Origin: Chloroflexota bacterium
GTDB taxonomy: Bacteria; Chloroflexota; Anaerolineae; Promineifilales; Promineifilaceae
Reading direction: 5' to 3'
NCBI GenBank assembly: GCA_024223125.1
Contig: JAAEOP010000985.1
Coordinates: 1-13,006, forward strand
DNA: 13,006 bases
The translations under genes and the position numbers were made by a program. This document shows, one piece after another, positions 27 to 12,877 of the stretch (position 1 is its first letter; every line of letters starts with the position of its first letter). The notes under the pieces were generated by a model that worked only from the letters and a program-made list of their open reading frames with translations, ran no database searches and was not told where the DNA came from.

Positions 27-1634
27 TTAGAAACCAACGGCCGTGCCATCATTGCGTGGTTCGCTGCCGCCGATAAGAACTCCAGATTCAGGATCGCGTA
101 CTATGACCTGCCCTCCACCAAAATGTATTCGCTGATGGGCTGGAAAAAGATCGTGGCCGCGTCGGGTTAATTCTCCACGAATGTTGTTGGAAACGGCCGC
201 TTCCAGAGCCACAACTTTATCTTTGAGCCAGTTAAAACGAGGCGCATCCAGAGCTGTCTGTGGGTCCATCCTGTATTTCACCAGATTTAAGCCCACTTGT
301 AAATGGCCCTGAGGCTGCATGAAGCCGCCCATAACGCCAAAACTGCTCCACGCCTGATTACCTTTCGTGATGAAGCCGGGGATGATGGTGTGATACGGCC
401 GTTTGCCCGGCGCCGCTTCATTGGGATGTCCGGGAACCAGACTGAAATTTGCGCCCCGATTTTGCAATTGAATTCCTGTTGTACCGGCCGTTAAACCACT
501 GCCAAAACCCATATACAAACTTTGAATCCAGCTAACCATATTGCCGGCTGCATCGGCTACAGAAAGGTAAACTGTGTCGCTATGTGGTGAGGGATTACCG
601 GCCGTGGGCTGCAAAGCAGAATCGGGCTGGATCAGGATTGCTCTTTCTTGGGCGTATCGGGGGTTTAAAAGTCCGGCGATGGGCACATTCACTTGCCGGG
701 GGTCGCCAATAGTGGCGTGAGCATCGGCAAAAGCCAACTTCATGATTTCTATCAGGGTATGGTAATAATCGGCCGAGCCGTAGGGCATCTGGTCAAGATT
801 GGCGTGTTGGGCCAGGTTGAGGGCAATAAGAGCAGTTAAACCCTGTCCATTGGGCGGAATTTCATGAAAGGCATACCCGTTGCCAAAGGGAACGGCTAGA
901 GGATTGACCCATTCTGGCTGGTAGTTGGCTAAATCTTCCATGGTTAAAACGCCACCAGCTTGTCGCACACAATCCACAATTTGCCGGGCAATGTCGCCGT
1001 GATAGATGGCATCGTCACCATCCTGAGCTAGGGTTTGCAGGGTTTGGGTAAATTCAGGGTTTTGAAAGCGTTCGGCGGGGCAGGGGGCACGGCCGTGTGG
1101 TAGCCAAACGCGCTTTGAATCGGGATGCTGACTTAAGATGTGGGTGGAACGCTGCCAACTCATGCCGATTCGTTGGCTGACCGGGAATCCATTTTGAGCG
1201 TAGCTTATGGGCCGTTGTAGCAATGTGTCTAATCCCATCGTGCCAAAGCGAGACAAAGCCGCTTGCCAGCCACGTACACTGCCGGGCACGGTTACAGGAA
1301 GAGGGCCACGGACGGGAAAAGTTTCATGTCCATGTTGGCGCACGAGATCGGCCGTTAAACCCATGGGCGCTGGGCCGCTGGCATTCAGACCGAACAGTTT
1401 CTTTTTATCAGCCATCCAGATAAGCCCAAAAGCATCGCCACCGATGCCGGTGGAGCAAGGTTCTACAACGCACAAAGTGGCTACGGCCGTAATTGCCGCA
1501 TCTACTGCGTTACCCCCTCGTTTCAAAATATCCAGGCCAGCCTGGGCAGCCAGGGGTTGGCTTGTAGCAACAATACCATTGGTAGCAATAACATTTGAGC
1601 GCCGGCTGGGAAAGGTAACTGTTTCAAAGTTCAT
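27..1634 (-). CDS. ggt: gamma-glutamyltransferase family protein (Ntn hydrolase)
   Basis: This 535-residue protein matches the gamma-glutamyltranspeptidase family, which cleaves gamma-glutamyl bonds such as that of glutathione and transfers the glutamyl group to water or an amino acid. The N-terminus (ATNGIVATSQPLAAQAGLDI, then RGGNAVDAAIT and GIGGDAFGL) and the C-terminus (GGSEPRNDGTAVGF) are both canonical, so the gene is complete. The proenzyme should cut itself before Thr354 in the HSDTVYLSVAD motif, giving a large subunit of about 353 residues and a small one of about 182. GFGSG (about 376-380), PGKRPYHTIIPG (409-420) and MGGFMQPQGH (435-444) are the usual small-subunit motifs. There is no signal peptide, so it is probably cytoplasmic, closer to the YwrD-like branch than to periplasmic E. 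coli GGT (inference). No Shine-Dalgarno precedes the ATG. A TAAAAT at 1643-1648 lies only 8 nt upstream, which suggests a leaderless mRNA. The substrate is not certain. Confidence 0.93.
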   Translation of the reverse strand: MNFETVTFPSRRSNVIATNGIVATSQPLAAQAGLDILKRGGNAVDAAITAVATLCVVEPCSTGIGGDAFGLIWMADKKKLFGLNASGPAPMGLTADLVRQHGHETFPVRGPLPVTVPGSVRGWQAALSRFGTMGLDTLLQRPISYAQNGFPVSQRIGMSWQRSTHILSQHPDSKRVWLPHGRAPCPAERFQNPEFTQTLQTLAQDGDDAIYHGDIARQIVDCVRQAGGVLTMEDLANYQPEWVNPLAVPFGNGYAFHEIPPNGQGLTALIALNLAQHANLDQMPYGSADYYHTLIEIMKLAFADAHATIGDPRQVNVPIAGLLNPRYAQERAILIQPDSALQPTAGNPSPHSDTVYLSVADAAGNMVSWIQSLYMGFGSGLTAGTTGIQLQNRGANFSLVPGHPNEAAPGKRPYHTIIPGFITKGNQAWSSFGVMGGFMQPQGHLQVGLNLVKYRMDPQTALDAPRFNWLKDKVVALEAAVSNNIRGELTRRGHDLFPAHQRIHFGGGQVIVRDPESGVLIGGSEPRNDGTAVGF

Positions 1635-1642
1635 ATTATGTC

Positions 1643-1648
1643 ATTTTA
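1643..1648 (-). promoter_or_regulatory. possible -10 element of a leaderless ggt transcript
   Basis: On the minus strand TAAAAT (5 of 6 to TATAAT) ends 8 nt before the ggt ATG and no ribosome binding site is visible. A start site about 7 nt downstream of the -10 would place the mRNA 5' end at or next to the start codon. The matching -35 region would fall at about 1666-1671, inside the LexA operator, but no good -35 hexamer is present there. Confidence 0.35.
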
Positions 1649-1655
1649 ACTTAAG

Positions 1656-1684
1656 TTGACACCGAACAGGTGTTCGTGTATACT
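1656..1684 (+). promoter_or_regulatory. sigma70-type promoter of lexA
   Basis: A consensus -35 TTGACA (1656-1661) is separated by exactly 17 bp from TATACT (1679-1684, 5 of 6 to consensus). Transcription should start near 1690-1692, giving a leader of about 68 nt before the lexA ATG at 1759. The spacer contains the LexA operator, which predicts autorepression by blocking RNA polymerase. Confidence 0.88.
1663..1676. promoter_or_regulatory. LexA operator (SOS box), CGAAC-N4-GTTCG type
   Basis: CGAACAGGTGTTCG is a perfect match to the CGAAC-N4-GTTCG inverted repeat known as the LexA box of Bacillus and other Gram-positive-type LexA proteins. It lies between the -35 and -10 of the lexA promoter and 29 bp upstream of the divergent ggt start, so it could also affect ggt. 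Confidence 0.93.
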
Positions 1685-1687
1685 TTG

Positions 1688-1701
1688 CGAACAAATGAGC
1701 G
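1688..1701. promoter_or_regulatory. possible second, weak LexA operator
   Basis: CGAACAAATGAGCG matches 8 of the 10 fixed positions of CGAAC-N4-GTTCG. It starts 25 bp after the main operator and covers the expected lexA transcription start. The left half-site is perfect and the right half is degraded, so a low-affinity or auxiliary site is possible but unproven. Confidence 0.35.
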
Positions 1702-1758
1702 ATTTTATAGTGGCTGGTGACTTGATTGGTGAAGTTATTAGTTTTGGAGTTTTGAATC

Positions 1759-2439
1759 ATGAGTGAAAAACCCTTATCAACCAGACAAAAAAACATGATG
1801 AATTTTATTGCGGAGTATGTGGTGGGTCACGGTCGTCCGCCGACCATTCGTGAAATTGGCAGCGCGGTTAACATCAGTTCCACATCAGTTGTCAATTATA
1901 ATCTGACCCGACTGAAAGAGAAAGGTTTGTTGGAGCGGGATGCTGAGGTATCACGCGGACTGCGTTTAACAACTAAATCGCAAGAGATATTTGGTTCCGT
2001 GCAAAATGCGATGGTGGAAGCAGTTGCAAATCTAATTCGTGTGCCCCTGTTAGGTAACATTGTTGCCGGTGAACCAATTGAAGTAGGCCACGATGATTTT
2101 GCATCTTATGATGAGGATGATGCGGTCGAATTGAGCAGTACAATGCTAGCGGGTAAGACAGATGATTTATTTGCTCTGCGGGTCAGTGGAGATTCAATGA
2201 TTGACGCTATGGTAAATGATGGCGACCTTGTGATTATGCGTCAAGAGAATACGGCCCGGAATGGCGATATGGTAGCCGTTTGGCTGAGTGATGATACCAC
2301 TACCTTGAAATACTTTTACCATGAAGGGGACCAAGTTCGTTTACAGCCAGCCAATCCTACAATGGAACCGATTTTTGTTGATCCCAAAGATGTGCAAGTA
2401 CAGGGCAAGGTGATGATGGTTCTGCGGCAGACGGCGTAG
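1759..2439 (+). CDS. lexA: LexA repressor, SOS response regulator and self-cleaving S24 protease
   Basis: LexA represses DNA-damage genes until RecA filaments on single-stranded DNA trigger its self-cleavage. The 226-residue protein has an N-terminal winged helix-turn-helix (about 8-70, with RPPTIREIGSAV and STSVVNYNLTRLKEKGLL) and a C-terminal S24 peptidase domain. The cleavage site Ala103-Gly104 is in GNIVAGEP. The catalytic serine is Ser146 in VSGDSMIDA, and the general base is Lys184 in TTLKYF. All are present, so the repressor should be functional. It is slightly longer than typical LexA (about 200-210 residues), with extra sequence in the inter-domain region. The ATG at 1759 has GGAG at 1746-1749, 9 nt upstream. 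The gene has its own LexA-controlled promoter and a terminator right after it, so it is probably monocistronic. Confidence 0.97.
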   Translation: MSEKPLSTRQKNMMNFIAEYVVGHGRPPTIREIGSAVNISSTSVVNYNLTRLKEKGLLERDAEVSRGLRLTTKSQEIFGSVQNAMVEAVANLIRVPLLGNIVAGEPIEVGHDDFASYDEDDAVELSSTMLAGKTDDLFALRVSGDSMIDAMVNDGDLVIMRQENTARNGDMVAVWLSDDTTTLKYFYHEGDQVRLQPANPTMEPIFVDPKDVQVQGKVMMVLRQTA

Positions 2440-2461
2440 GCCGGCACTAAGGTAATGAGTG

Positions 2462-2489
2462 AAGGACGGCCGTGTTGCCGTCCTTTTTT
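2462..2489 (+). terminator. rho-independent terminator of lexA
   Basis: A perfect 9-bp stem, AAGGACGGC (2462-2470) with GCCGTCCTT (2477-2485), has a 6-nt loop and runs directly into a T-tract ending at 2489. It lies 22 bp after the lexA stop. The left arm and loop contain one copy of the dispersed ACGGCCGT octamer (2466-2473). Confidence 0.92.
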
Positions 2490-2500
2490 GTTTCGATAAA

Positions 2501-2518
2501 TTAGAACAAATGGTCTAA
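2501..2518. promoter_or_regulatory. inverted repeat, possible degenerate LexA operator
   Basis: TTAGAACAAATGGTCTAA is an imperfect 18-bp palindrome, with 6 of 7 arm positions paired around a 4-bp centre. Its core GAAC-N4-GGTC differs from the LexA core GAAC-N4-GTTC at one of eight positions, but the outer C and G of the consensus are A and T. It lies 46 bp upstream of the FtsK-like gene and after the lexA terminator, where an operator for that gene would be expected. No convincing promoter was found around it. Confidence 0.35.
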
Positions 2519-2563
2519 CGTTGAATTGCAGGTGTGATGTGTGGAAAAAATAGGAAGGGAGAG

Positions 2564-3739
2564 ATGTCAGACCAGGAAAATATACAAAAAAATATTTATG
2601 AACAACGATTAAATCATCAGTTAGAAATCCAATCGCGACAGATTGACTCGATACTATCTCAGCATGAAATACCGGCTCAAGTTGCCGGTGGACGTGTACA
2701 GTCTCGCTCTATCCGCTTCGATTTTTATTCGCATCTGGAGTCAGGTTTGGAACGGCTGCGTGGTATTACCCAGGATTTGCTATTGGCGCTGGGTGTGCCA
2801 GATGGCAAGCTGGTGAATGAAAATGGAAACTGGCAGCTTTTTGTAACTCGGCCAGAAGACCCACCGGTGTCGTTGCTAGATTTACTGCCGATTTTGCCAG
2901 AGTTGCCGGCAATGAGTGTGCCGTTGGGAGTAGATGAAGACGGCCGTCCGGTCATATTTAATTTCTTGCAAGATGGTTTAACTCATTGTCTCATTGCTGG
3001 CAATAATGAAGCCGGGAAGACATCCTTATTACGGGCCATTGGTTTATCTTTGGCATTGGCATACAAGCAATCTCAATTGCAGATTGTCATTTTAGATGTC
3101 AGCCAAAAGTCAAAACATACCGACCATCCTCATTTGGACCCTTTAACATTTTTACCGCATATGTTAGGACCGGTCGCTCATGGGGTTGAGGAATTGGCCG
3201 AGTATTTAAAATTTCTGGTCGCGGAGACAAAATACCGACAGGAAGAACGACTACAAACACCGCGAATTGTTGTGCTAATTGATGAGGTGATGAATCTGCT
3301 GGCAAACGGTGATGAGGCTGTACGAGCGGATTTGGCGCAAGTAATCCAACGAGGTGGCGAGGCTGGTATATATATTCTTATGTCAACAGAGCGTCCAGAG
3401 TCTTCTCATTTAAGCAGTTTGATGCGGGCCAATTTACCGGCTCGTCTGGTGGGGCGAGTAAACGATGCTTCTCAGGCTGTAGCTGCCGTCGGGAAAAATG
3501 ATTCTCAGGCGAAGTATTTATTGGGGAAGGGGGATTTTCTGGCCTATATAAATGGCGAGACGACTCATTTTCAGGCCGCTTATATTGGGGATTATGATCT
3601 TCATTTGGCTTTGCAAACATTACACCGGCAGCGCTCACGGCCGCTGCTGGCACACCCCATTTCATTGCCTCAAAATGGGAACACGGCCGTTCAGGATAAT
3701 CAATTTAGAGTGAATGGTGATGGTGTGGAAATAGATTAA
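2564..3739 (+). CDS. compact cytosolic FtsK/SpoIIIE-type ATPase
   Basis: The protein resembles the DNA-motor core of FtsK/SpoIIIE. Residues about 38-115 look like the FtsK alpha subdomain (RSIRFDFYSHLESGLERLRG, then LLLALGV). Residue 118 onward carries MSVPLGVDEDGRPVIFNF, the lead into the RecA-like beta domain. Walker A is GNNEAGKT (146-153) and Walker B is IVVLIDE with Asp240-Glu241. GIYILMSTERPE (268-279) matches the FtsK region that usually reads TQRP, and LLGKGDFLAY (319-328) the conserved LLGxGDML. There is no membrane segment at the N-terminus and no DNA-reading gamma domain at the C-terminus, so it is not the cell-division FtsK. The ATG at 2564 is chosen because AGGAAGGGAG (2552-2561) precedes it; an in-frame GTG at 2534 adds 10 residues but has no good ribosome site. 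Similar short ATPases serve in DNA transfer, but the role here is unknown. Confidence 0.85.
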   Translation: MSDQENIQKNIYEQRLNHQLEIQSRQIDSILSQHEIPAQVAGGRVQSRSIRFDFYSHLESGLERLRGITQDLLLALGVPDGKLVNENGNWQLFVTRPEDPPVSLLDLLPILPELPAMSVPLGVDEDGRPVIFNFLQDGLTHCLIAGNNEAGKTSLLRAIGLSLALAYKQSQLQIVILDVSQKSKHTDHPHLDPLTFLPHMLGPVAHGVEELAEYLKFLVAETKYRQEERLQTPRIVVLIDEVMNLLANGDEAVRADLAQVIQRGGEAGIYILMSTERPESSHLSSLMRANLPARLVGRVNDASQAVAAVGKNDSQAKYLLGKGDFLAYINGETTHFQAAYIGDYDLHLALQTLHRQRSRPLLAHPISLPQNGNTAVQDNQFRVNGDGVEID

Positions 3740-3757
3740 GCGTGGGAGGATGACATA

Positions 3758-3982
3758 ATGCAGATAGGCATGTTGTGGCTGGATGATGATCAGAAACGAC
3801 CGTTGGAAGAAAAAGTGCAACGGGCGGTAGAGTATTATTGGGAGAAATACGGCCGTTGGCCGGAGCTTTGTCTGGTTAATCCAACGGAGATTTCAGATAA
3901 AATGAGGGTGGGGAAAGTAGAGGTAACGTCGCGCCGGACGGTACTTCCTCATCATTTTTGGTTAGGAATGAAAAATGCCTGA
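3758..3982 (+). CDS. small protein of unknown function, partner of the FtsK-like gene
   Basis: This 74-residue protein is not recognised. It starts 18 bp after the FtsK-like stop, with a strong ribosome site GGGAGGA (3743-3749) 8 nt before the ATG, so it is very likely translated and co-transcribed. It is soluble and rich in Trp and charged residues (EEKVQRAVEYYWEKYGRWP), followed by a section containing NPTEISDKM and RRTVLPHHFW. No membrane span, Cys cluster or obvious helix-turn-helix is visible. The pairing suggests it assists the ATPase, for example as an adaptor (inference). Its TGA (3980-3982) directly touches the TGA of the converging response regulator in the palindrome TGATCA. Confidence 0.75.
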   Translation: MQIGMLWLDDDQKRPLEEKVQRAVEYYWEKYGRWPELCLVNPTEISDKMRVGKVEVTSRRTVLPHHFWLGMKNA

Positions 3983-5212
3983 TCAGGAAAGTTCTCGCAT
4001 TAGTATGGAACGGCTACCACCCTGGACTAAAGTTAATTGAGCGTGGAAGGCACGGCCGTCAACCATAATCTCCGATTCCATAATAATTTGCCCATCTGGG
4101 GATTGGGTAATAAATTGAACAATTTCTTTATCCTTAATGAGCTTGTGAATGGGGATGCCATTCAGCTTTGCATCCGGCAGCTTAAAAGCTAATCGCCCAG
4201 CCTTATTTATCATTAGAAGTTTTGAATCTTCATCAATCACCAGAACTGGGTCATTTGTGTGGTCAACAACCGCGCTCAATGTTTCTCTTTCTCGTTCAAT
4301 ATCTGTATAAATATTAGCATTATTTATTGCGATGGTAGCATAACCGCCTAATGCCGATAAGGCTCGTGTGTCATTGCTGTCGAAAGATGTTTCTTTTAAT
4401 CGGTTTGTAACACCCAGCACTCCAATCGGTTTATTTTGCAAAATCAAGGGTACATAGATAAGTGATTTTACCAAAAGTGCGGTATGGGTTCGTTTCCATT
4501 GAGAATCATTCCCAATGGCGATGGCTCGCTTTGTTTGCAGCACTTTGCCGGCCAAACTGTCATTCACACGCTTACGCATGGATCGTGCTTTAGAATCCAG
4601 ATTCTTTGAAGCCCGAATGTAAAGTTCGCCATGTTCTTCATCGAGCAGCATGAGGGAACCTTCTTCGGCGCCAACAACATACACGGCCGCTTCCACAACC
4701 CGGTGTAAAACCTCTTCCAAGTCCAATGAGGAGGCCACCGATTTACCCACACCATAGAGAACATTTAATTCTTGTGCTCGCCTTTGCAGTTGCGAATTGC
4801 TCTCCATGAGCTGTTGTACCAACTGGTCGCGTTCTCGTTGCAAACGGCTTTCACGTAATGCTTTATCTACCGAGTCGCTAATTTCATCGGCATCAAATGG
4901 TTTGATAACGTAATCACGAATACCTAGCCGGAAAGCCGATACGGCCGTTTCCTCTGAGCCATGAGCGGTAGCTAGAATTGCGGGAATTTCAATACCGCGT
5001 TCTTTTAACTTTTCTAGTACCTCAAGCCCGGTCAAACGGGGCATTTGCTGATCAACAATCATCAGGTCAGGCTCTTTTGCTATCGCCATTTCCAGGCCCA
5101 TTAACCCGTTAGACGCTTGCATAACCTCAAAGCCTTTTGGTTGCAATATGTATTCACATAGAAAGTCTCGAATTTCTTGTGAATCGTCAATGACAAGTAC
5201 GCGCTCGTACAT
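3983..5212 (-). CDS. REC-GAF-PAS response regulator without output domain
   Basis: This is a 409-residue cytosolic signalling protein. The receiver domain (1-120) has the acidic pair Asp9-Asp10, phosphoacceptor Asp54 (MIVDQQMPRLTG), Thr82 and Lys104 (VIKPF), so all the switch residues are present. A coiled coil of about 118-155 leads to a GAF domain (about 158-305) and a PAS domain (about 310-403). The chain stops at RSILMRELS, where paralogues such as the cyclase at 9398-11359 read AILRDITELKR and continue into an effector domain. It therefore has sensing and receiving parts but no kinase, DNA-binding or enzymatic output, and may act by protein contact or be a truncated relic. I start it at 5212 (MYERVLVIDDS) because AAGGA lies 9 nt upstream. 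An in-frame ATG at 5311 would add 33 unrelated residues. Confidence 0.9.
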   Translation of the reverse strand: MYERVLVIDDSQEIRDFLCEYILQPKGFEVMQASNGLMGLEMAIAKEPDLMIVDQQMPRLTGLEVLEKLKERGIEIPAILATAHGSEETAVSAFRLGIRDYVIKPFDADEISDSVDKALRESRLQRERDQLVQQLMESNSQLQRRAQELNVLYGVGKSVASSLDLEEVLHRVVEAAVYVVGAEEGSLMLLDEEHGELYIRASKNLDSKARSMRKRVNDSLAGKVLQTKRAIAIGNDSQWKRTHTALLVKSLIYVPLILQNKPIGVLGVTNRLKETSFDSNDTRALSALGGYATIAINNANIYTDIERERETLSAVVDHTNDPVLVIDEDSKLLMINKAGRLAFKLPDAKLNGIPIHKLIKDKEIVQFITQSPDGQIIMESEIMVDGRAFHAQLTLVQGGSRSILMRELS

Positions 5213-5496
5213 GATTTTTGTTCCTTGCGTCGGAAATAAAATAAGTAATGATTCAGAGCCTATATTATCTACATCACGGACTATATTACTACTCGGTAGA
5301 TAACCTTGCAACCCTTCACAAACACAGTATTAATGATAGAACGAGATTACACGTTGCGAATTATAATATTAACTATTCATCTACCGTCAGTGCAACGCAC
5401 TTACAAAAGGTTATTTTGAGGTACATTACTCTGAAAAAGCGTGTTGTACTTGTTTAGTTGCTTTTAGGAATGAAATTTATATAACTTGTACATTTA

Positions 5497-5527
5497 GAAA
5501 TCCGATTTCTCCGAAAAATCGGATTTC
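5497..5527. repeat. perfect 12-bp inverted repeat (hairpin)
   Basis: GAAATCCGATTT (5497-5508) and AAATCGGATTTC (5516-5527) are exact reverse complements around a 7-nt loop. No T-tract follows on either strand, so it is not a canonical rho-independent terminator. It could be an intergenic repeat of the MITE or REP kind or a protein-binding palindrome. Confidence 0.8.
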
Positions 5528-5651
5528 CTTGCTCAACTTGAAAATTTGCTATCCCTTAATTTTGATATGAAAAATGTATTACTATTGAGAAAAGTTGTCC
5601 TACAGATGTCCATGAGATAGCATGATGACGTAATAATACAGCCATCAATCA

Positions 5652-5722
5652 AAAAGTCACGCTTTTCTCTGGTGCAGAATAGCACATAATTGCCCAAAAG
5701 CTTGACTTTTCCAGAGAAAGCG
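5652..5722 (+). promoter_or_regulatory. structured leader upstream of the lipoprotein gene
   Basis: CGCTTTTCTCTGG (5660-5672) pairs with CCAGAGAAAGCG (5711-5722), 12 bp with one bulged T. Inside the loop a small GTGC/GCAC hairpin (5672-5685) is possible. A second pair, AAAAGTCA (5652-5659) with TGACTTTT (5703-5710), crosses the first, so the two helices either form a pseudoknot or exclude each other. The right arm ends 15 nt before the chosen start codon and includes the only purine-rich stretch (AGAGAAAG), so folding could affect translation. It matches no riboswitch class I know. Confidence 0.35.
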
Positions 5723-5737
5723 AACATTTACGTTGTG

Positions 5738-7588
5738 ATGATGAAGAGATTTTGCATTAATTTTGGGAAGATGAGACCTGGAGTTTGGTTTCTGGTTATA
5801 TTTTGGTTTGTAACGGGTTGTGGTCAGCAGAACCCTGATCCTGAAGTTGCCAATGAAATAATCGTAACTGAAGTGGTGACAGTTGCCGGTGAGGAACTTA
5901 CCATTACGCGCGTGATTGAATTGACACCTACGCCAACAGCTACACCGGCGATTGATAAAATTCTAGAGACATCAGGGCCGGTTACTCTGGATATTGGTTT
6001 TGTGCGCGAGACGCCGCCCAACATTGATCCCCAAAAACCAGTCACGGCCGATAGCATTGATCTGATTGAGAACCTTTTTGTGGGTCTCACAAGATTTAAC
6101 CATGAGACGAACCAGATTGAGCCGCAGTTGGCGGAAAGATGGGAGGTAGATGACAACGGCCGTGTCTGGACTTTTTATTTGCGCGATGATGTGAATTGGG
6201 TACAGGTGTCAGAAGCGGAGGTGGATGAGCAACTACAGGTAGAGCCAATACGTCCCGTAACGGCAAATGATATTGTCTTTGCTGCCAGGCGTGTTTGCAG
6301 CCAGGAAACCGGAACGCCGGATGCTTTTTTGTTGTTCATCATTGAAGGATGTGAGGCCGTTAACACTCTCTCACGGCCAAGGCCGGCAGATTTGGAAAAA
6401 ATCGGTATTCAAGCCTTAAATGATCACACATTACAGGTATCTTTAACCAAACCGGCCATGCACTTTTTAACGTTAACCAGTTTGTGGTTATTACGGCCGT
6501 TGCCGCCAGAACTCATCGAAGAATTTGGTGACGATTGGCAAACCGATGCTGAATCACAGTTGGTTACTAGTGGCCCCTTCTTCCCCGAAAATAAATCTTT
6601 ACGCACACTACACCGTAATCCATTATGGCTCTTGCCATTATCAGGCAATGTCGAGCAAATAAATCTCCATTTTCTGGAGAGTGATGAAACATCTCTGGAA
6701 ATGTGGCAGGAAAATGAACTAGATGTCATAGATACTGCCAACCTCAATATCGGCAGCCTTGATGAAGCCACTCGTGCCAGCCTAACACTTATAACTGATC
6801 AGACGGTGCATTATTTGGGATTTAATTTTGATAGTGGTGTATTTCGTGAAGCTCAAATTCGCCGAGCATTTAGTGCAGCTATTGATCGGGAACAATTGGT
6901 AGAACAGCTATTTGGCGACCAGGCACTGGGTATGAAACATCTACTGCCACCAGGTGTCATCGGCGCTTCGCTAATTGATCAAGTTGGCGTAGGGTATAGT
7001 CCTGATTATGCTCGCCAGCAGTTAGCCGATAGTGGCTTCCGCAACTGCCGCTTTATGCCCGACTTTACTATATTGGTCAGTTTGTCAGACCTTTCTTTGC
7101 AGCAGGCTGAATTGATCCGGCGAATGTGGATTGAGGAGTTGGGCTGCGCTGAAGACCAAATCAGTATTGACCAGGCTCAGTTTGGCACACTTTTAGCCAA
7201 TACCAGACAAAGCGCCGGGGCGCGTCGTCCTGATATTTGGGAACTAGCCTGGGCTGCTTATTTTCCTGACGCCCATAATTTAATGGGGGACTTTTTGCAC
7301 TGTGAGGAAGGGGAAAATCGTCGCCATCAACCTTGCACGGCTGTAGATGATGATATGCGACAAGCTAACACGTTGACGGACCCCGTTGAACGTGTACAAA
7401 TGTATCGCCGTGTGGAAAATGAGCTTTTTGGGGAAAATGGCTTGATGCCAATTGTACCCCTTTATGTGCGCGGCGAATCTATTCTGGTGCAAAATTGGCT
7501 CTCATTTTCAGCGGCCATATCTGGCGGTGAGCAGTACGATACATATCACATTGATATGGCCCGCAAAGAGTTGGAACGTAGCCGGTAA
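5738..7588 (+). CDS. family 5 (peptide/nickel-type) ABC transporter substrate-binding lipoprotein
   Basis: This 616-residue protein is an extracytoplasmic solute-binding lipoprotein of the SBP_bac_5 (OppA/DppA) group, which usually captures oligopeptides, sometimes other solutes, for an ABC importer. A lipoprotein signal sequence (1-28) ends in the lipobox VTGC with Cys28. Next comes a linker of about 35-75 rich in Val, Glu and Thr, ending in TPTPTATP, of the kind common in Chloroflexota lipoproteins. The binding domain follows (about 80-600), with the family signatures LIENLFVGLTRFN and LAERWEVDDNGRVWTFYLRD near its start and IRRAFSAAIDREQLVEQLFG in the middle. I start at ATG 5738 because it gives a proper signal peptide; 5741 is equally possible, and no strong ribosome site is present. 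No permease or ATPase gene is in the window, so it is an orphan here. rsmG begins 3 bp after its stop, implying co-transcription. Confidence 0.92.
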   Translation: MMKRFCINFGKMRPGVWFLVIFWFVTGCGQQNPDPEVANEIIVTEVVTVAGEELTITRVIELTPTPTATPAIDKILETSGPVTLDIGFVRETPPNIDPQKPVTADSIDLIENLFVGLTRFNHETNQIEPQLAERWEVDDNGRVWTFYLRDDVNWVQVSEAEVDEQLQVEPIRPVTANDIVFAARRVCSQETGTPDAFLLFIIEGCEAVNTLSRPRPADLEKIGIQALNDHTLQVSLTKPAMHFLTLTSLWLLRPLPPELIEEFGDDWQTDAESQLVTSGPFFPENKSLRTLHRNPLWLLPLSGNVEQINLHFLESDETSLEMWQENELDVIDTANLNIGSLDEATRASLTLITDQTVHYLGFNFDSGVFREAQIRRAFSAAIDREQLVEQLFGDQALGMKHLLPPGVIGASLIDQVGVGYSPDYARQQLADSGFRNCRFMPDFTILVSLSDLSLQQAELIRRMWIEELGCAEDQISIDQAQFGTLLANTRQSAGARRPDIWELAWAAYFPDAHNLMGDFLHCEEGENRRHQPCTAVDDDMRQANTLTDPVERVQMYRRVENELFGENGLMPIVPLYVRGESILVQNWLSFSAAISGGEQYDTYHIDMARKELERSR

Positions 7589-7591
7589 AAT

Positions 7592-8305
7592 ATGATCTCA
7601 GACTTTTTTTTATGCCACACGGCCGACTACAATTTGCAACTCACCGGGCAGCAGCAGACCCAGTTTTCTATGTATCTGGCGTTGCTATTGGAATGGAACG
7701 GCCGTATGAATCTGACGGCCGTGCGCAAGCCAGAAGCGATTGAGCAGCGTCACTTTCTGGATGCTTTGTCTTGTATGACGGTGATGGGAGATTTGAACGG
7801 CCGTGCCCTCATAGATGTCGGAACTGGGGCTGGTTTCCCTGGATTGCCCCTCAAGGTGGCTTTTCCTGAGAGTAAAATGACATTGGTTGAAAGCGTTGCT
7901 AAAAAATGTCGTTTTCTGGAAGCGGTGGTTTCTGAATTGGGATTGAGCGATGTGCAGGTCATCACAGAGCGGGTTGAACTCATTGGTCAGCAGGCGGCAC
8001 ACCGCGCCCGGTATGATTGGGCTGTGGCCCGTGGTCTGGCTGAAATGCGTGTCCTGGCGGAATATTTGCTGCCTTTATGCCGGGTTGGGGGGACAGTGTT
8101 GGCTCAAAAAGGAGAAAGTGCAGCGGGGGAAACAGTTGCAGCTGCTAATGCTATTCATCTGTTGGGCGGTGGAAAACCCACACTGTACCCTGTGCAAATT
8201 CCTGGTACGACACAAACGCATCATCTGGTCACTGTACCCAAGATTGCGAATACGCCAGACAAATATCCTCGGCGTGTGGGGCTGCCGACTAAACGGCCAT
8301 TGTAA
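7592..8305 (+). CDS. rsmG: 16S rRNA (guanine527-N7)-methyltransferase RsmG (GidB)
   Basis: RsmG transfers a methyl group from S-adenosylmethionine to N7 of G527 in the 530 loop of 16S rRNA. In several bacteria its loss gives low-level streptomycin resistance. The 237-residue protein is full length for the family. WNGRMNLTAV (35-44) and RHFLDAL (53-59) form the typical N-terminal signature. The SAM-binding motif is IDVGTGAGFPGLPLKV (74-89), followed by LVESVAKKCRFLE (98-110), YDWAVARGLAEM (141-152) and LAQKG (170-174). The ATG at 7592 lies 3 bp after the lipoprotein stop with only a weak ribosome site, so translation is probably coupled. The gene is apart from mnmG and parAB, its frequent neighbours. 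A mobile element begins within a few bp of the stop codon but does not disrupt the gene. Confidence 0.96.
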   Translation: MISDFFLCHTADYNLQLTGQQQTQFSMYLALLLEWNGRMNLTAVRKPEAIEQRHFLDALSCMTVMGDLNGRALIDVGTGAGFPGLPLKVAFPESKMTLVESVAKKCRFLEAVVSELGLSDVQVITERVELIGQQAAHRARYDWAVARGLAEMRVLAEYLLPLCRVGGTVLAQKGESAAGETVAAANAIHLLGGGKPTLYPVQIPGTTQTHHLVTVPKIANTPDKYPRRVGLPTKRPL

Positions 8306-8306
8306 A

Positions 8307-8334
8307 TAATTACACATTAAGGCAAAAGTGTCAC
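8307..8334 (+). repeat. left terminal inverted repeat of mobile element
   Basis: This 28-bp arm matches the reverse complement of 9373-9400 at 25 of 28 positions. The shared core is CATTAAGGCAAAAGT (8315-8329). The outermost six bases, TAATTA, are palindromic and are repeated at 9395-9400, so they may be a target duplication rather than part of the repeat. In that case the true end is at 8313. Confidence 0.87.
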
Positions 8335-8768
8335 GAGAGCAAGAGTTTGGTATCATGAACGCTCACCAAATTTGAGTGCGGAGAACTGATTGACTGACAA
8401 ATCTCACAATTAACAAGTTTTGTATCTCTTGTTTCGCGTAAACGAAACTACTAAAAAACGAATTCTTGTGGCATATTTTCATGTATGACAAAACCAAAAG
8501 GATTCGTATATGAGCGAGTCGACGATACCATTGTTACTCTTATTTCGCGTAAAAAGGAAAGGCACTAAGGTGAATTTCCCAATTGCAGATAAACTTGTTT
8601 TGACACACCAAGCAAAGTCAGAATCTGTATTAACAAATCAGAAAGTGGTGTTAATTGCCAATGCCATTGTCCATTAGGCATCTGAACGCTAACGCGAGAA
8701 ATTTCAGCACGGATAAAAGCACGTAATAAACGTAACCCAGTTGGCAGCAATTCCAATTATGAAATTCA
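8313..8768. other. left part of the mobile element, no convincing gene
   Basis: This stretch is AT-rich and follows the left inverted repeat. It contains two 17-bp direct repeats (8426-8442 and 8537-8553) and a small inverted repeat GTTTCG/CGAAAC at 8431-8448. A 55-codon plus-strand frame at 8510-8677 and a 63-codon minus-strand frame at 8565-8756 overlap in opposite directions, and neither resembles a protein I know. Confidence 0.5.
8426..8553 (+). repeat. pair of 17-bp direct repeats inside the mobile element
   Basis: CTCTTGTTTCGCGTAAA (8426-8442) recurs as CTCTTATTTCGCGTAAA (8537-8553), with one mismatch and a spacing of 111 bp. The first copy also forms a short palindrome with the CGAAAC that follows it. 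They may be transposase-binding sites or leftovers of a duplication. Confidence 0.7.
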
Positions 8769-9195
8769 TCAGTCAGGAACAGGCTCAATTTCAAGCTGAA
8801 CATACATGAATTCGAGCAAATCCCCCCAGCTATCAAACAACAAGTAGCGCATCAAGGCACGCACATCATGGAAAAATGTGTCTCGCCGTCCCAACTCTTC
8901 ACGAATGAGACGATAGAGTTTATTGGTGAGGTGGAAAACAGTATGCAGTAAGAACGCTAACAAATTTAGGGTCGTTAGCGTCATGGCAAGATATTGGTCA
9001 CCATGCCCAAAATTATGTTCCAGATGATACCCCTTCGTTTTCAAGATATTGTTATTCTCATTCTCCACTTTCCAACGGGCCCGGCCACATTCAACTAGTT
9101 CTGTCACATTGCCTTCGGTGACGGGAATATTGGTTACCCAAGCATTGTGGTAAATTGTCTCACCGGTGTCTTTATGGGTAATATGCAGTTCACCC
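8769..9195 (-). pseudogene. DDE transposase, C-terminal fragment
   Basis: The last 140 or so residues of a DDE-type transposase are preserved. They begin near ELHITHKDTGETIYHNAWVT, pass through GRARWKVENENNN, KTKGYHLEHNFGHG and LTTLNLLAFLLHTVFHL, and end at EIEPVPD. The Glu in WKVENENN is probably the third catalytic acid. The Asp residues and the N-terminal two thirds are missing. The open frame continues upstream to 9332, but the predicted residues there do not look like transposase, so I place the break near 9195. I recognise the conserved block from transposases widespread in Chloroflexota and cyanobacteria but cannot assign the IS family from memory; IS4-like is a guess. It should be inactive. 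Confidence 0.8.
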
Positions 9196-9371
9196 CTGAT
9201 GAATTGCGGCAACGATTGGCACAAGTTAGTCGGGAAGAGTATGAAGCTGAACGCATTCGTTATGAATGTCGTCAAGCACAATTCCGTCGTCGGTACCGAT
9301 GGCGACATTGCAGGGATGCTGTTCTTGAACAACGGCTTGCTGATTGGGCTAAGGCTATTCCTAGCCTCTAA
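9190..9371 (+). pseudogene. possible 3' fragment of an unidentified gene
   Basis: On the plus strand, opposite and adjacent to the transposase fragment, an open frame reads FTPDELRQRLAQVSREEYEA and continues with a very basic, charged tail that closes with RLADWAKAIPSL at a TAA, 1 bp before the right inverted repeat. The charge pattern and codon use look coding, while the opposite strand over the same stretch does not. No start codon or 5' part belongs to it, because upstream of about 9190 the sequence is the antisense of transposase. It could be the C-terminus of the element's original gene on the plus strand. I do not recognise the family. Confidence 0.35.
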
Positions 9372-9372
9372 T

Positions 9373-9400
9373 GTGTTACTTTTGCCTTAATGCGTAATTA
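9373..9400 (-). repeat. right terminal inverted repeat of mobile element
   Basis: This is the reverse-complement partner of 8307-8334, with 25 of 28 positions matching. On the plus strand the core reads ACTTTTGCCTTAATG (9378-9392). Its last six bases (TAATTA, 9395-9400) include the complement of the cyclase stop codon (9398-9400). Confidence 0.87.
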
Positions 9401-11359
9401 CAGAGGGGGACGCTTGACCTGAGCGCGGTAAAGGATTTGTGGCCTGGTAATGCCTTGCAAAGCGACCGATCCCATTCGAGTAAAACCAATCTGACTGATA
9501 AGTTTGGGTTTGCTAGAGGACAGATCATCATGTACGGCCGTTGAAATGACAATTTGTCCATCCTCTGCCAGATCAACTAGACGCGAAGCTGTATTCATCG
9601 GTTGGCCTACCATACGGAAACTCATCCGCGATTCAGCTCCCACATTACCCATCAGCACATTCCCCATATCAATGCCCACGCCTAGCCCTAATTCTGTTCC
9701 CGCCCGCTGATACCACATCTGGCGTAAACTATTGAATTCGTTTTGCATGGCGACGGCCGTTTTCACAGCTCGGTCAGTTGCATCTGGCTGATCAAAAGGA
9801 GCATTAAACCCCACCAAGATTTCATCTCCCGTCATCTCGAAAACAGTGCCATCAAATTCAATTGCCACTTCCATCATGCGGGTGAAGAATTCATTGAGTT
9901 GTTGGATAACTTCGTCTGGCTCTACCCGGGTAATCATACCCCCGGTCCAGTTACGCAAATCAGCAAACATCACCACTGCCAGCCGTCGTTCACGCCGGGC
10001 CATCAATTCGGGTGCATTTTTTAGCACATGGTTCACCAGACGCGGCCCCATATACCGGGCAAAAGTTTCTTTTACCTGTTCCTTTTCATGCCGTTCTGCT
10101 GCCAGCTTTAATTTTTCAGCCCGTTTCAGTTCTGTAATATCGCGTAAAATGGCTGCAAATCCTACCCCCTGAATGGGAGAAATGTTGGCGTAGAGGATAC
10201 GGCTGTTAAACAGGGCCAATTCCCGGCCCTCAGTTTGGGTAGGCATCTCTTGAAATAGATGATTAACCAGTTCAAGCTGCGGTATTTCGGACAGCGATTT
10301 ACTGATGACTTCTTTGGTATGTACATTGAAAAGGCGGACGGCCGAATTATTGACCAATGAAATTTGCCACTGTTCATCCGTAATAATGATGGCGTCAGTC
10401 GAGTGGGTTAGAATGGTTTCCAGTTTGCGCTGTTCTTCACTGATCTCGGTAAATAAACGGGCGTTTATGATGGTTGCCGTCACGATGCTGCCGATAGTTT
10501 CCAAAAGATTCTTTTGCCCCGGTGTAAAATAACCCGGCGCCGGGTTATTTAGTATCAAAATGCCTTCCACCCGGTCTGGTCCTATTAGCGGTATGCCGAT
10601 GGCTGAACCGCTTTCACGGCGGTGATCTGGCAGGGTTATCCAGCGGTCATCCTGGGTGATATCATCTATTATTTCACTCTGTTTGTGTTTGAGAAGCCAG
10701 CTTCCTAAACCACGAGTCATGACTGCCTGTGTAACATGGTCACTGATAGTTACCTGTGATCCAGCCCGAATCATAAAGCGATGATAGACTTGCCCCTGCT
10801 CATCTAGCAGCATAATGTTACCTTTGGTTGCCCCAACGGCCGCCTGCGTTTGAAAAAGTGCATCAGCCATAACCGTTTCCAGGTTGAGTTGGGTGCTGAT
10901 GGCACGATTGATGTTGTAGAGCAGTTGCAGTCGGTTCCGTTCTTCTTCCAGCCGAAACCGGGCCCGTTTGACTTGACTGTAAGTACGAACGCGCACCAGT
11001 AGTTCTTCGCGTACATGGGGGCGTGATAGGAATTCATCGGCGCCGGCGCGTTTCCCTTCTATACGCGATTCCACACGGTTTAGAGCTGTGACCATGATGA
11101 TGGGAATGAGTTGGGTAGCTTGATCGCCTTTTAGAATACGGCAAACTTCAAAACCATCCAGGTCAGGCATCATCACGTCCAGCAAAATGACATCTGGATC
11201 ATGTTTCTGGGCCATTTCAATGCCATCTTTACCACCAGACGCTTCGATGGTTTCGTAGCCTTCCAGTTTTAATTGGGATGCCAGCAGCATCCGGTTTTCG
11301 CGGGTGTCATCTATGACTAATACAACAGCCGGTGCTTCTGTGTTTGTAGTTGTGTCCAT
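9398..11359 (-). CDS. REC-GAF-PAS-class III nucleotide cyclase
   Basis: This 653-residue cytosolic protein should convert a phosphorelay signal and small-molecule or redox cues into a cyclic nucleotide. The receiver domain (about 11-130) has Asp17-Asp18, phosphoacceptor Asp61 (LLDVMMPDLDG) and Thr91, but the usual Lys is Arg113 (LSRPH). A GAF domain (about 155-305) and a PAS domain (about 310-410, ending AILRDITELKR) follow, then a linker (KEQVKETFARYMGPRLVNHV) typical of GAF-cyclases. The class III cyclase domain spans about 457-650. The metal ligands are Asp467 (MFADLR) and Asp512 (TGDEI), and the transition-state pair is Asn589/Arg593 (MNTASR). At the two base-selecting positions it has Glu508 and Arg582, so ATP or GTP use cannot be assigned. 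The start at 11359 (MDTTTNTE) has a weak AGAG upstream; 11395 is the alternative. The stop codon touches the mobile element. Confidence 0.9.
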   Translation of the reverse strand: MDTTTNTEAPAVVLVIDDTRENRMLLASQLKLEGYETIEASGGKDGIEMAQKHDPDVILLDVMMPDLDGFEVCRILKGDQATQLIPIIMVTALNRVESRIEGKRAGADEFLSRPHVREELLVRVRTYSQVKRARFRLEEERNRLQLLYNINRAISTQLNLETVMADALFQTQAAVGATKGNIMLLDEQGQVYHRFMIRAGSQVTISDHVTQAVMTRGLGSWLLKHKQSEIIDDITQDDRWITLPDHRRESGSAIGIPLIGPDRVEGILILNNPAPGYFTPGQKNLLETIGSIVTATIINARLFTEISEEQRKLETILTHSTDAIIITDEQWQISLVNNSAVRLFNVHTKEVISKSLSEIPQLELVNHLFQEMPTQTEGRELALFNSRILYANISPIQGVGFAAILRDITELKRAEKLKLAAERHEKEQVKETFARYMGPRLVNHVLKNAPELMARRERRLAVVMFADLRNWTGGMITRVEPDEVIQQLNEFFTRMMEVAIEFDGTVFEMTGDEILVGFNAPFDQPDATDRAVKTAVAMQNEFNSLRQMWYQRAGTELGLGVGIDMGNVLMGNVGAESRMSFRMVGQPMNTASRLVDLAEDGQIVISTAVHDDLSSSKPKLISQIGFTRMGSVALQGITRPQILYRAQVKRPPL

Positions 11360-11438
11360 TTTTTGCAGTTCTCTTGTGGCTGGGTGTCTGCGCATATTTT
11401 GAGCAGGTTGGAACGATGATATCCAGAATGCCTAACTT

Positions 11439-11447
11439 ATTATAACA
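11439..11447 (-). promoter_or_regulatory. extended -10 promoter of the cyclase gene
   Basis: On the minus strand TGTTATAAT is a perfect extended -10 (TGn plus TATAAT). No clear -35 lies 17 bp upstream, which extended -10 promoters can do without. It lies in the gap between recF and the cyclase gene, about 80 nt before the chosen start codon, so the cyclase need not depend on recF read-through. Confidence 0.55.
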
Positions 11448-11460
11448 ACTGATTCTGACA

Positions 11461-11475
11461 AATGGTCTCACCATT
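11461..11475 (-). terminator. small hairpin just after recF, weak terminator candidate
   Basis: AATGGT and ACCATT form a perfect 6-bp stem with a 3-nt loop, 1 bp beyond the recF stop codon. Only a short TTTG follows on the minus strand, so termination would be weak. It may partly separate recF from the cyclase transcript. Confidence 0.3.
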
Positions 11476-11476
11476 G

Positions 11477-12703
11477 CTACTGGTGGACACGGCCGTTAAC
11501 GACTTTCAGATTTGTTGCTTGCTGCAAGAACTCCTTTGTAAACATACCGGGATCGGTGGCGGTTAAAATCGCCTGCTGCACTGACTGTACTGTTTGTAAT
11601 AGAGCGGCACGACGCTGTTCATCTAACTCGGCCATGACTTCATCTAGCAGCAATATAGGTTGATCTCCGGTTATGGCTGTCATCCATTGAATTTCAGCTA
11701 TTTTTAGGGCTAACAGGGCGCTGCGTTGCTGCCCGCGAGAGCCATAGCTGCTAAGGGCACGGCCGTTGAGCAAAAAACGCCAATCATCCCGGTGTGGTCC
11801 AATACTGGTTGTGCCGCGGGCCAGGTCTTTAGCTTCTACGGCCGTTAGTTCAGCCTCAAAACGAGCCGCAATCAATTGGGGGTCATGAACCTGTTCACAA
11901 AGCCAATCATCCAAGGCTGCGGCGGTTTCAATATCCCGGCTGCGACGGGAACCATTTCCGGCCAAGCGTGGCAAATAGCGTAGACGAATGGCTTCGCTGC
12001 CATTGGTTAAGGCTTCATAATGAACCCGCTGTGTCTCGCGGGCGATCTCTTTTAGAAAGGTAGACCGTCGGGAAAAAATCTGGCTGGCCAGGGTCACAAG
12101 CTTTTCGCTGAAGATGGGGAGAATACCTCGATTACCACTGCCTTCGGCCAACTGTCGTAAGAGCGCATTGCGCTGTTCAAGCACTTTATTATAACGAGAA
12201 AGGGTCTGGCAGTAAATGGAGTCTATCTGGCACAGGGTTATGTCCATATAACGGCGGCGTTCGCTGGGAGAACCGGTAATGAGTTGTACATCTTCGGGCA
12301 AAAATAAAACCACACGCAAATTACCTAATAAATCCATCAGCCGTACTTTGTGCCGGCCGACTAATGCTTCGCGCCGGAAACTATTGACTTTGCCTTGGTT
12401 ACGGCCGTTGCGCTCTTGAATCAGCCGCATTTCCAGATGACGTTTATCATCAGGGGTCATTATCTGGGCTACCAGTCGCCCGACTACCACCGGCTCTTCT
12501 GATTGGGTGGCTTCCCAATTCAGCAGTTGATGATCATAGTCTGCGTGAGGGGAACGGGTGGTAGCCAGATAGTAGATCGCTTCCAGCAGGTTGGTTTTAC
12601 CCTGAGCATTTTGCCCGTAAAGCAGGGTTGCTCCCGGTGAAAGGTTTAATTCTAAACGGCCGTAATTACGAAAATTCGTCAAAGATAAGTGCGAAATATG
12701 CAT
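11477..12703 (-). CDS. recF: DNA replication and repair protein RecF
   Basis: RecF is an SMC-like ATPase that binds gapped DNA and, with RecO and RecR, helps load RecA at single-strand gaps. RecA filaments in turn trigger LexA cleavage. The 408-residue protein begins MHISHLSLTNFRNYGRLEL, the family's usual start. Walker A is GQNAQGKT (30-37), the ABC signature is SYGSRGQQR (319-327), and Walker B is ILLLDEVMAELDE with Asp354-Glu355. SPSERRRYMD and TSIGPHRDDW are further RecF hallmarks. I start at 12703 because an in-frame extension to 12796 adds 31 residues with no family similarity. No good ribosome site is visible at 12703. The gene is away from dnaA-dnaN, its common location. It is followed in the same direction by the cyclase gene, which seems to have its own promoter. 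Confidence 0.96.
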   Translation of the reverse strand: MHISHLSLTNFRNYGRLELNLSPGATLLYGQNAQGKTNLLEAIYYLATTRSPHADYDHQLLNWEATQSEEPVVVGRLVAQIMTPDDKRHLEMRLIQERNGRNQGKVNSFRREALVGRHKVRLMDLLGNLRVVLFLPEDVQLITGSPSERRRYMDITLCQIDSIYCQTLSRYNKVLEQRNALLRQLAEGSGNRGILPIFSEKLVTLASQIFSRRSTFLKEIARETQRVHYEALTNGSEAIRLRYLPRLAGNGSRRSRDIETAAALDDWLCEQVHDPQLIAARFEAELTAVEAKDLARGTTSIGPHRDDWRFLLNGRALSSYGSRGQQRSALLALKIAEIQWMTAITGDQPILLLDEVMAELDEQRRAALLQTVQSVQQAILTATDPGMFTKEFLQQATNLKVVNGRVHQ

Positions 12704-12733
12704 AAAAACCAGATTTGCAAGGCGCCATTTGAG

Positions 12734-12761
12734 ACTTGTAGCCTGTAACTTGCAACTTGCC
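12734..12761. repeat. four degenerate 7-bp tandem repeats upstream of recF
   Basis: ACTTGTA, GCCTGTA, ACTTGCA and ACTTGCC follow one another without gaps. They recall heptanucleotide short tandem repeats known from filamentous cyanobacteria. The array is very short and lies in the recF leader. Confidence 0.45.
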
Positions 12762-12877
12762 TGAACGATGGTATACCAACACACCTTCACAAGCAATATA
12801 TGATGTTTGGATGAGTATAGCGAGAAATCGTGGGGATGAGGTAATATGGGTCAAAATAATACAATAGGAGAAGAAAA

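Follow-up and report, generated by a model that had tools for sequence, protein, structure and literature searches.

A highly iterated octamer palindrome in an order of Chloroflexota: dialects, saturation and possible means of maintenance

The stretch of DNA considered here (the window, 13,006 nucleotides of contig JAAEOP010000985.1 from a Chloroflexota bacterium) carries genes for a gamma-glutamyltranspeptidase, LexA, an FtsK/SpoIIIE-like protein, two response regulators, an SBP_bac_5 protein, RsmG and RecF, and scattered through it is a single palindromic octamer, ACGGCCGT, which is its own reverse complement. The 13-kb window contains 22 exact copies, the first at 37 and the last ending at 12663, which are spread over seven genes and two intergenic gaps and whose flanks appear unrelated. 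There are five copies in recF, four in the gamma-glutamyltranspeptidase gene, three in rsmG, and two each in the FtsK-like gene, the response regulator/GAF/PAS gene, the SBP_bac_5 gene and the response regulator/cyclase gene; two more are intergenic, and lexA has none. The copies of ACGGCCGT are as follows.

37..44, copy 1, gamma-glutamyltranspeptidase gene (27-1634, minus strand)
395..402, copy 2, gamma-glutamyltranspeptidase gene
1089..1096, copy 3, gamma-glutamyltranspeptidase gene
1483..1490, copy 4, gamma-glutamyltranspeptidase gene
2466..2473, copy 5, intergenic, between lexA (ends 2439) and the FtsK-like open reading frame (ORF; starts 2534)
2940..2947, copy 6, FtsK/SpoIIIE-like ORF (2534-3739, plus strand)
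3683..3690, copy 7, same ORF
3849..3856, copy 8, intergenic (3739-3983)
4052..4059, copy 9, response regulator/GAF/PAS gene (3983-5311, minus strand)
4941..4948, copy 10, same gene
6156..6163, copy 11, SBP_bac_5 gene (5690-7588, plus strand)
6493..6500, copy 12, same gene, Arg-Pro frame
7698..7705, copy 13, rsmG (7592-8305, plus strand), Asn-Gly-Arg frame
7715..7722, copy 14, rsmG, Thr-Ala-Val frame
7797..7804, copy 15, rsmG, Asn-Gly-Arg frame
9534..9541, copy 16, response regulator/GAF/PAS/cyclase gene (9398-11395, minus strand)
9753..9760, copy 17, same gene
11489..11496, copy 18, recF (ORF 11477-12796, minus strand)
11759..11766, copy 19, recF
11838..11845, copy 20, recF
12401..12408, copy 21, recF
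12656..12663, copy 22, recF, close to the gene start

An earlier examination of the letters of the window (the sequence-only reading) had reported 22 copies of this palindrome between 37 and 12663, and both the count and the coordinates were reproduced exactly. Its statement that all three frames are used, as Asn-Gly-Arg (7698), Thr-Ala-Val (7715) and Arg-Pro (6493), agrees with the ORF translations; three copies do fall within the first 215 bp of rsmG (7698, 7715 and 7797), and the cluster of three from 11489, given as 350 bp, spans 357 bp. In 200 dinucleotide shuffles of the window, ACGGCCGT occurred 0.13 times on average and at most twice, and none gave 22. The 24 possible one-mismatch words total 17 occurrences in the window, and the runner-up octamer palindrome is found three times. 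It had also been claimed that the octamer is absent from insertion sequence debris. This claim did not hold up: the ORF at 8769-9332 (minus strand, 187 amino acids) has no Pfam or NCBIfam match, which leaves its reading as a transposase unconfirmed, and the copy-free gap across it (1,737 bp) is not distinctive. Because an equal gap of 1,736 bp lies mostly inside the cyclase gene, the absence of copies over this ORF means little.

Genome-wide evidence comes from 56 genomes of a related order of uncultured bacteria, 30 of which carry at least 400 copies of ACGGCCGT per Mb and are referred to below as the A dialect; in 27 of the 56, the density is 991-2,102 per Mb. A search of genome contigs with the RecF of the window gave at least 80 RecF loci, and 13 genomes were picked from the best of these. 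Among these 13, ACGGCCGT is present in 12,611 copies in G001 (6.0 Mb), 11,524 in G002, 6,316 in G003 and 1,727 in G005, and in 6-266 copies in the other nine (155 in G004). A sample of 400 genomes from the phylum includes three of this order, and each of the remaining 397 Chloroflexota has at most 471 copies. In a 48-row RecF tree, the window clusters with G014-G019 (support 100/97), and the "high" state (more than 800 per Mb, 28 rows) requires five changes, at least two of which are forced by well-supported branches. The named RecF relatives include Anaerolineae, Chloroflexi, Ardenticatenaceae and Promineifilaceae, and the order of G001 is perhaps Promineifilales.

In 22 samples, 591 copies of ACGGCCGT were observed versus 6.4 expected, an observed/expected ratio (O/E) of ~92, whereas all other octamer palindromes with an expectation above 3 reach at most 2.6-fold. 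Together with the shuffles, this 92-fold ratio rules out chance or composition as the cause of the excess. The sequence-only reading had named two outcomes that would speak against a genome signature, namely, an O/E near that of other GC-rich palindromes and an excess limited to the window. The first is contradicted by the ~92-fold versus 2.6-fold values, and the second is ruled out by the counts in the relatives, which carry ACGGCCGT throughout their genomes. The 591 copies comprise 545 that are coding (205, 273 and 67 in phases 1, 2 and 3, respectively), 44 that are noncoding and 2 at boundaries, and the noncoding O/E is 104-128 in three host sets versus 82-93 overall. Protein constraint, which had already been discounted from the window, is thus ruled out, since all frames and noncoding DNA are occupied and synonymous choices favor the octamer. 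Words that differ from ACGGCCGT by one base have an O/E of 1.3-5.5 when the difference lies at positions 1/8 and of 0.3-1.5 at inner positions. Taken together, ACGGCCGT displays the general features of a highly iterated palindrome (HIP), that is, a genome-wide excess, coding and noncoding copies, deviations at outer positions and alternates in relatives, and it is the HIP of a Chloroflexota order. The genome-wide, clade-limited excess in relatives supports the original suggestion of a lineage signature that resembles cyanobacterial HIP1 but has a different sequence.

Four genomes of the order are without ACGGCCGT as an iterated word and carry an alternate palindrome instead. There are 9,414 copies of TCGGCCGA (the T dialect) in G020 (7.8 Mb) and 7,668 in G036 (5.1 Mb), 12,040 copies of GCGGCCGC (the G dialect) in G052 (8.0 Mb), and 3,665 copies of TGCCGGCA in G032 (4.0 Mb; from a control word count). 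Both TCGGCCGA and GCGGCCGC retain the core CGGCCG. Since the core is common and the flanks change, the flanking base would be a lineage-specific setting. The remaining NCGGCCGN palindromes show no enrichment in A-dialect samples (O/E 0.4-1.3). Four genomes (G005, G056, G057 and G058) have a 9- to 11-fold excess of the hexamer CGGCCG as such, and its flanks are looser there. G032 is a switch of core, beyond a switch of flank: at L209, CGGCCG is depleted about 10-fold (one copy in 12 kb), and TGCCGGCA fills 12 of 16 permissible places, defined as protein positions where synonymous codons alone could spell the octamer. In G004, TGCCGGCA is mildly in excess (886 copies; 4 of 14 permissible places). 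The samples of G041-G047 show weak shifts, those from the RecF regions of G026 and G027 have no iterated palindrome, and most remaining genomes of the order have no clear one.

Apart from the dialects, GCCGGC is almost missing from the samples of G005, G020 and G052 (L183, L180 and L179; 0-1 copies, O/E 0-0.1), a scarcity that looks like restriction avoidance. Elsewhere in the Chloroflexota, GCCGCGGC occurs 24 times in 21 kb (L006), and GCGCGCGC and CGCGCGCG occur 13-22 times each in 21 kb (L008 and L009); these are possibly other HIP-like states.

Where ACGGCCGT is the iterated word, it approaches saturation of the permissible places. With ORFs called by length alone, 487 of the 529 such places in 270 kb of G001 are filled (258/262 in the Thr-Ala-Val frame, 164/182 in the second frame and 65/85 in the third), when the codon usage of those genes predicts 42, 10 and 1. 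When 21 other stretches are pooled, the filled fractions are 197/209, 255/282 and 65/93, as against 6/21, 4/71 and 0/29 in ten genomes without this dialect. In addition, permissible Thr-Ala-Val positions number 3.3 per 1,000 codons in G001, 2.9 in G014 and 2.1 in the pooled samples versus 0.39 in the ten nondialect genomes. This excess of about 5-8 times, between sets that differ in GC content, suggests that amino acids have shifted too. The motif itself creates some of the permissible places, and the filled fractions measure synonymous preference, not the total effect. Occupancy is also high in other dialects (102/128 in G036 and 90/129 in G020 for TCGGCCGA; 109/127 in G052 for GCGGCCGC).

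The strength of the bias, S, was expressed as a maximum-likelihood log-odds shift versus codon usage. In all 24 A-dialect samples (the window plus 23 of the 30 genomes; the smallest is 4.6 kb, and small samples have a wide error), S is 4.0-6.2 or the places are saturated (34/34, 15/15, 33/33). The window, with 20 of 24 places filled, has an S of 4.9, and the T, G and TGCCGGCA dialects have values of 4.5-4.6. By the same measure, HIP1 on 50 kb of the Synechocystis plasmid pSYSA gives 4.8 (19/31 places). Thus, the strength is alike across host stretches, dialects, the phage contig described below and HIP1 on one plasmid. Host DNA is not filled throughout: two methyltransferase loci, L092 (G038) and L098 (G019), carry no octamer, as would be expected of recent arrivals.

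Conservation of the sites, a check that the sequence-only reading had proposed, was followed in both directions in four pairs of relatives, nonoverlapping on the RecF tree (the G016-G018 grouping is weakly supported), and was compared with that of control words of the same composition and with two CpG. Identical octamers were present in the relative in 425 of 452 cases versus 628 of 1,341 for controls, and over all 16 ordered comparisons, 983 of 1,077 octamers were kept versus 855 of 1,884 controls. Within the octamer, identity is 0.956, compared with 0.761 for the base next to it and 0.791 for background sequence; at third codon positions, the corresponding values are 0.942, 0.627 and 0.573. 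Neighboring bases are therefore unprotected, and the footprint is 8 bp. For G015-G017, the first comparison gave 34/34 one way, and more sequence gave 83/84, with 72/82 in reverse; because the directions differed, conservation was judged on both together. Turnover does occur at greater distance, since only 10 of 15 octamers are kept between G014 and G018 (72% identity).

Sites are gained faster and lost more slowly than controls. Of 152 one-off words, 11 turned into the octamer, versus 460 of 31,050 for controls, a 4.9-fold increase (Poisson range about 2.4-8.7) that is 9.8-fold at inner positions (6/43) and 2.8-fold at outer ones (5/109). Conversely, the octamer became a one-off word in 10 of 452 cases versus 461 of 1,341, a factor of 0.064. 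The factors derive from small counts (11 gains, 10 losses), and most events are recorded in both directions of a pair. The implied S is 4.3, at which fixation theory predicts factors of 4.39 for gains and 0.058 for losses.

The octamer is not confined to chromosomes. A scan of IMG/VR for three consecutive copies of ACGGCCGT gave 14 viral loci, 4 of them dense, with 2.5 or more copies per kb, and the other 10 sparser, with 0.24-1.51 per kb. Contig G466 (65.5 kb) has 227 copies, with 3.4 per kb over 58 kb, and 166 of its 179 permissible places are filled. Profile searches of its ORFs (10 for head, portal and terminase; 20 for tail and methyltransferase) revealed a major head protein (1e-89), a portal protein (2e-71), a terminase (4e-26), a tail protein and two adenine-type methyltransferase domains. 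Other octamer-rich viral records are G462 (85 copies in 33.5 kb), G463 (226 in 100 kb) and G469 (106 in 46 kb); G463 and G469 contain partition genes and may be plasmids or integrated elements. The octamer itself suggests that all four reside in hosts of this order. A similar scan of viral contigs for triple copies of TCGGCCGA gave six loci, none like L299; the highest counts were 7 copies over 12.6 kb and 5 over 2.7 kb, the second of which includes the triple itself.

Two further observations concern viral records. At L308 (IMG/VR), CGCCGGCG occurs 28 times in 12.5 kb with 64% GC and is perhaps another iterated palindrome, and in G466 (L312, 1924-4661), the gene for a PAPS-reductase/DUF3440 protein adjoins a SNF2-type helicase gene.

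The spacing of copies was compared with a null in which they occupy permissible positions. The gaps are nearly random in 270 kb of G001 (squared coefficient of variation [CV2] 0.97, P = 0.11) and more even than the null in 120 kb of G014 (CV2 0.68, P = 0.001). The pooled short samples have a CV2 of 0.75, and gaps shorter than one-tenth of the mean make up 3% of the total versus 9.5% expected. The gaps may thus be mildly even, and a fixed spacing rule is ruled out by the near-random gaps of G001. Furthermore, 127 of 149 permissible places within 50 bp of another site are filled versus 55 of 57 that lie more than 800 bp from one (trend p = 0.067). Occupancy is consequently little tied to the distance of a neighbor, which argues against a function as one marker per kb.

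A methyltransferase with CGGCCG or GGCC specificity had been put forward as something to look for, and none was established. As to METHYLTRANSFERASES, the HIP genomes among the 56 do not all share a methyltransferase of either PF00145 or PF01555. PF00145 is found in 26 of the 56 and is missing from HIP genomes G001, G002, G003, G014, G017, G018 and others; it does not track the HIP state (16/30 A-dialect genomes versus 10/26 others, p = 0.30). PF01555 is found in 52, with no match better than 9.5e-10 in HIP genomes G018, G023, G024, G037, G039 and G049. Relatives may be incomplete metagenome-assembled genomes, and so the absence of a gene is soft evidence. An apparently solitary DPPY-type methyltransferase (317 amino acids in G002) matches the YhdJ and CcrM models below their cut-offs; the DPPY motif is typical of adenine methyltransferases. 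Its orthologues are present in 14 of the 56 genomes, with 57-94% identity to that of G002 and loci that include L231/L136 (G002) and L232 (G001). They occur in 13 of the 30 A-dialect genomes versus 1 of the 26 others (Fisher p = 6e-4, kinship ignored and a broken G062 fragment uncounted) and are missing from 17 of the 30, including G014, G017, G018 and G019, the neighbors of the window. A group of 5-methylcytosine methyltransferases common to G005, G057, G058 and G041 (66-76% identity) looks Dcm-like and was hence not counted as a CGGCCG enzyme. ComEC (PF03772), present in 50 of the 56 genomes, is also found in G004, G026, G027 and G032, which are without this HIP; its distribution does not discriminate the HIP state.

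Any mechanism must account for an 8-bp footprint, faster gain, slower loss and similar strength wherever measured, as well as for weak dependence on neighbors, the inclusion of phage, dialects that differ by one base, and a state gained and lost within the order. Motif-directed repair fits these facts most simply; per-site selection does equally well on gain and loss and is poorer on constancy. With somewhat less than even confidence, we favor the idea that the HIP state is driven by a per-site biochemical bias in the form of motif-directed mismatch or heteroduplex repair. In this model, a cellular system would recognize CGGCCG together with a flanking base pair that depends on the lineage; if a new mismatch leaves one strand with the full octamer, the outcome would favor that strand. 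Any DNA, whether chromosome or phage, would converge on saturation once it has replicated in these cells for long enough, and a changed flank preference of the recognizer would rewrite the genome into a new dialect. A saturated phage contig is hard to reconcile with chromosome-only functions, and an enzyme ratio would be expected to give a like strength in different species and replicons, less so selection that scales with population size. A fuller version, in which an unknown sequence-specific maintenance system restores or creates the octamer at heteroduplexes in chromosomes and resident phages until almost all permissible places are taken, alters protein composition in doing so, switches dialect via one flanking base pair, and has HIP1 as a second instance, is more doubtful. 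Several points weigh against the repair model. The gain and loss factors equally fit a fixation bias of S = 4.3, whether from plain selection or biased conversion, and the evener gaps of G014 lean toward selection. The host of phage G466 is putative, as is its resident lifestyle. No recognizer or methyltransferase was identified in searches that covered PF00145 and PF01555, with MutH-like and Vsr-like proteins and other methyltransferase families outside their scope. Finally, the repair-type ratchet that Elhai proposed for HIP1 in 2015 requires a site methyltransferase (PMC4390886, in its available text), yet five A-dialect genomes (G018, G023, G024, G039 and G049) show none that is convincing, being without PF00145 and without a PF01555 match better than 9.5e-10.

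Selection at each site, in which an abundant DNA-binding or end-processing factor (a nucleoid protein or a Chi-like signal) maintains some 10,000 copies with a 2Ns of 4-5 each, is a genuine if doubtful possibility. Phages share the benefit of Chi, and under selection they would profit likewise. The gain and loss factors lie near the fixation-theory values, the footprint is 8 bp with unprotected neighbors, occupancy dips slightly within 50 bp of another site, and the gaps of G014 are more even than the null; however, 2Ns should follow population size, whereas the strength is similar over species, dialects, coding and noncoding DNA and phage, places are mostly filled even at spacings under 50 bp, the G001 gaps are indistinguishable from the null, and there is no candidate factor. 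It is improbable that the HIP is linked to a solitary methyltransferase of CGGCCG, GGCC or the octamer that serves strand discrimination, replication timing or self-recognition. Methyltransferases are reported for HIP1 and alternate HIPs in the available text of PMC4390886, and the DPPY enzyme is concentrated in the A dialect. Against this, that enzyme is missing from most A-dialect genomes and PF00145 is untied to the HIP state; none of these enzymes is known to recognize such a site, in genome searches that other methyltransferase families lie outside. Moreover, the DPPY enzyme is of the adenine type, yet the G-dialect word has no adenine. A drive by DNA uptake, in which competence prefers fragments with the octamer and copies spread by transformation, would agree with the wide presence of ComEC, the dialects and the sequence-specific gain, but it is very unlikely: ComEC extends to genomes without this HIP, occupancy barely drops near other copies although a single copy per fragment should suffice, a tailed phage is saturated, and the known uptake sequences in the available text of PMC1939737 are nonpalindromic. 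A passive trap, in which an octamer that mutates less (for example, when shielded by a protein) simply accumulates, is disfavored and hardly credible, given that gains are raised about 5-fold overall, at inner as well as outer positions, and that neighboring bases are unprotected, even though losses are strongly lowered.

Whatever its cause, ACGGCCGT provides an independent case of a HIP, of like strength, in a second phylum, HIP1 being known from cyanobacteria. Dialect switches, natural absences and sharing with phage weaken chromosome-only, uptake and simple methyltransferase explanations, and the similar strength of the bias in dialects, phage and the HIP1 plasmid is a constraint on any explanation. 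The question becomes a gene hunt by presence and absence across the 56 related genomes. In addition, the octamer may help to recognize which phages, plasmids and contigs belong to hosts of this order. A literature search found no account of ACGGCCGT as a repeat in genomes or as a HIP of Chloroflexota, the 2011 and 2018 papers on the spread and selection of HIP1 being outside its coverage; the sole match to the letters of the octamer concerns DNA encryption.

Among known systems, restriction-modification offers one comparison: CGGCCG is the site of EagI, and the palindromic core is of the type II kind, but hosts and phage contig G466 alike have the octamer in strong excess, the opposite of avoidance. 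Like Chi, which may protect host and phage DNA, it has 8 bp and is over-represented; unlike Chi, it is a palindrome with an excess of about 92-fold that fills most permissible places, and any link to a recombination enzyme of the RecBCD/AddAB type is putative. With the DNA uptake sequences (DUS) and uptake signal sequences (USS) it shares dense genomic repeats and a sequence-specific drive, and these have dialects too. Unlike them, it depends weakly on neighbors, saturates a phage and is not tracked by ComEC, and it is its own reverse complement and so has no orientation, whereas the known uptake sequences are nonpalindromic (PMC1939737, available text).

The nearest comparison is with HIP1, first described in 1995 (cited in the available text of PMC1939737), whose role was still termed a mystery in 2015 (PMC4390886, as available, also for what follows). 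In cyanobacteria, HIP1 (GCGATCGC) and its alternates (TCGATCGA, GGGATCCC, GGCGCC and others) reach densities of several hundred to about 2,500 per Mb, one-off words of HIP1 deviate mainly at outer positions, and relatives carry alternates. The present HIP differs in phylum (Chloroflexota) and in sequence (ACGGCCGT versus GCGATCGC), with CGGCCG as its core, in the full-strength dialects of related genomes, in that no tracking methyltransferase was found, and in its saturated phage contig, the word "phage" being absent from the available text of PMC4390886. What it shares with HIP1 is an octamer palindrome built on a hexamer core with two CpG, the range of density, deviations at outer positions, alternates in relatives, and the strength of the bias at the codon level (4.8 on pSYSA versus 4.9 in the window).

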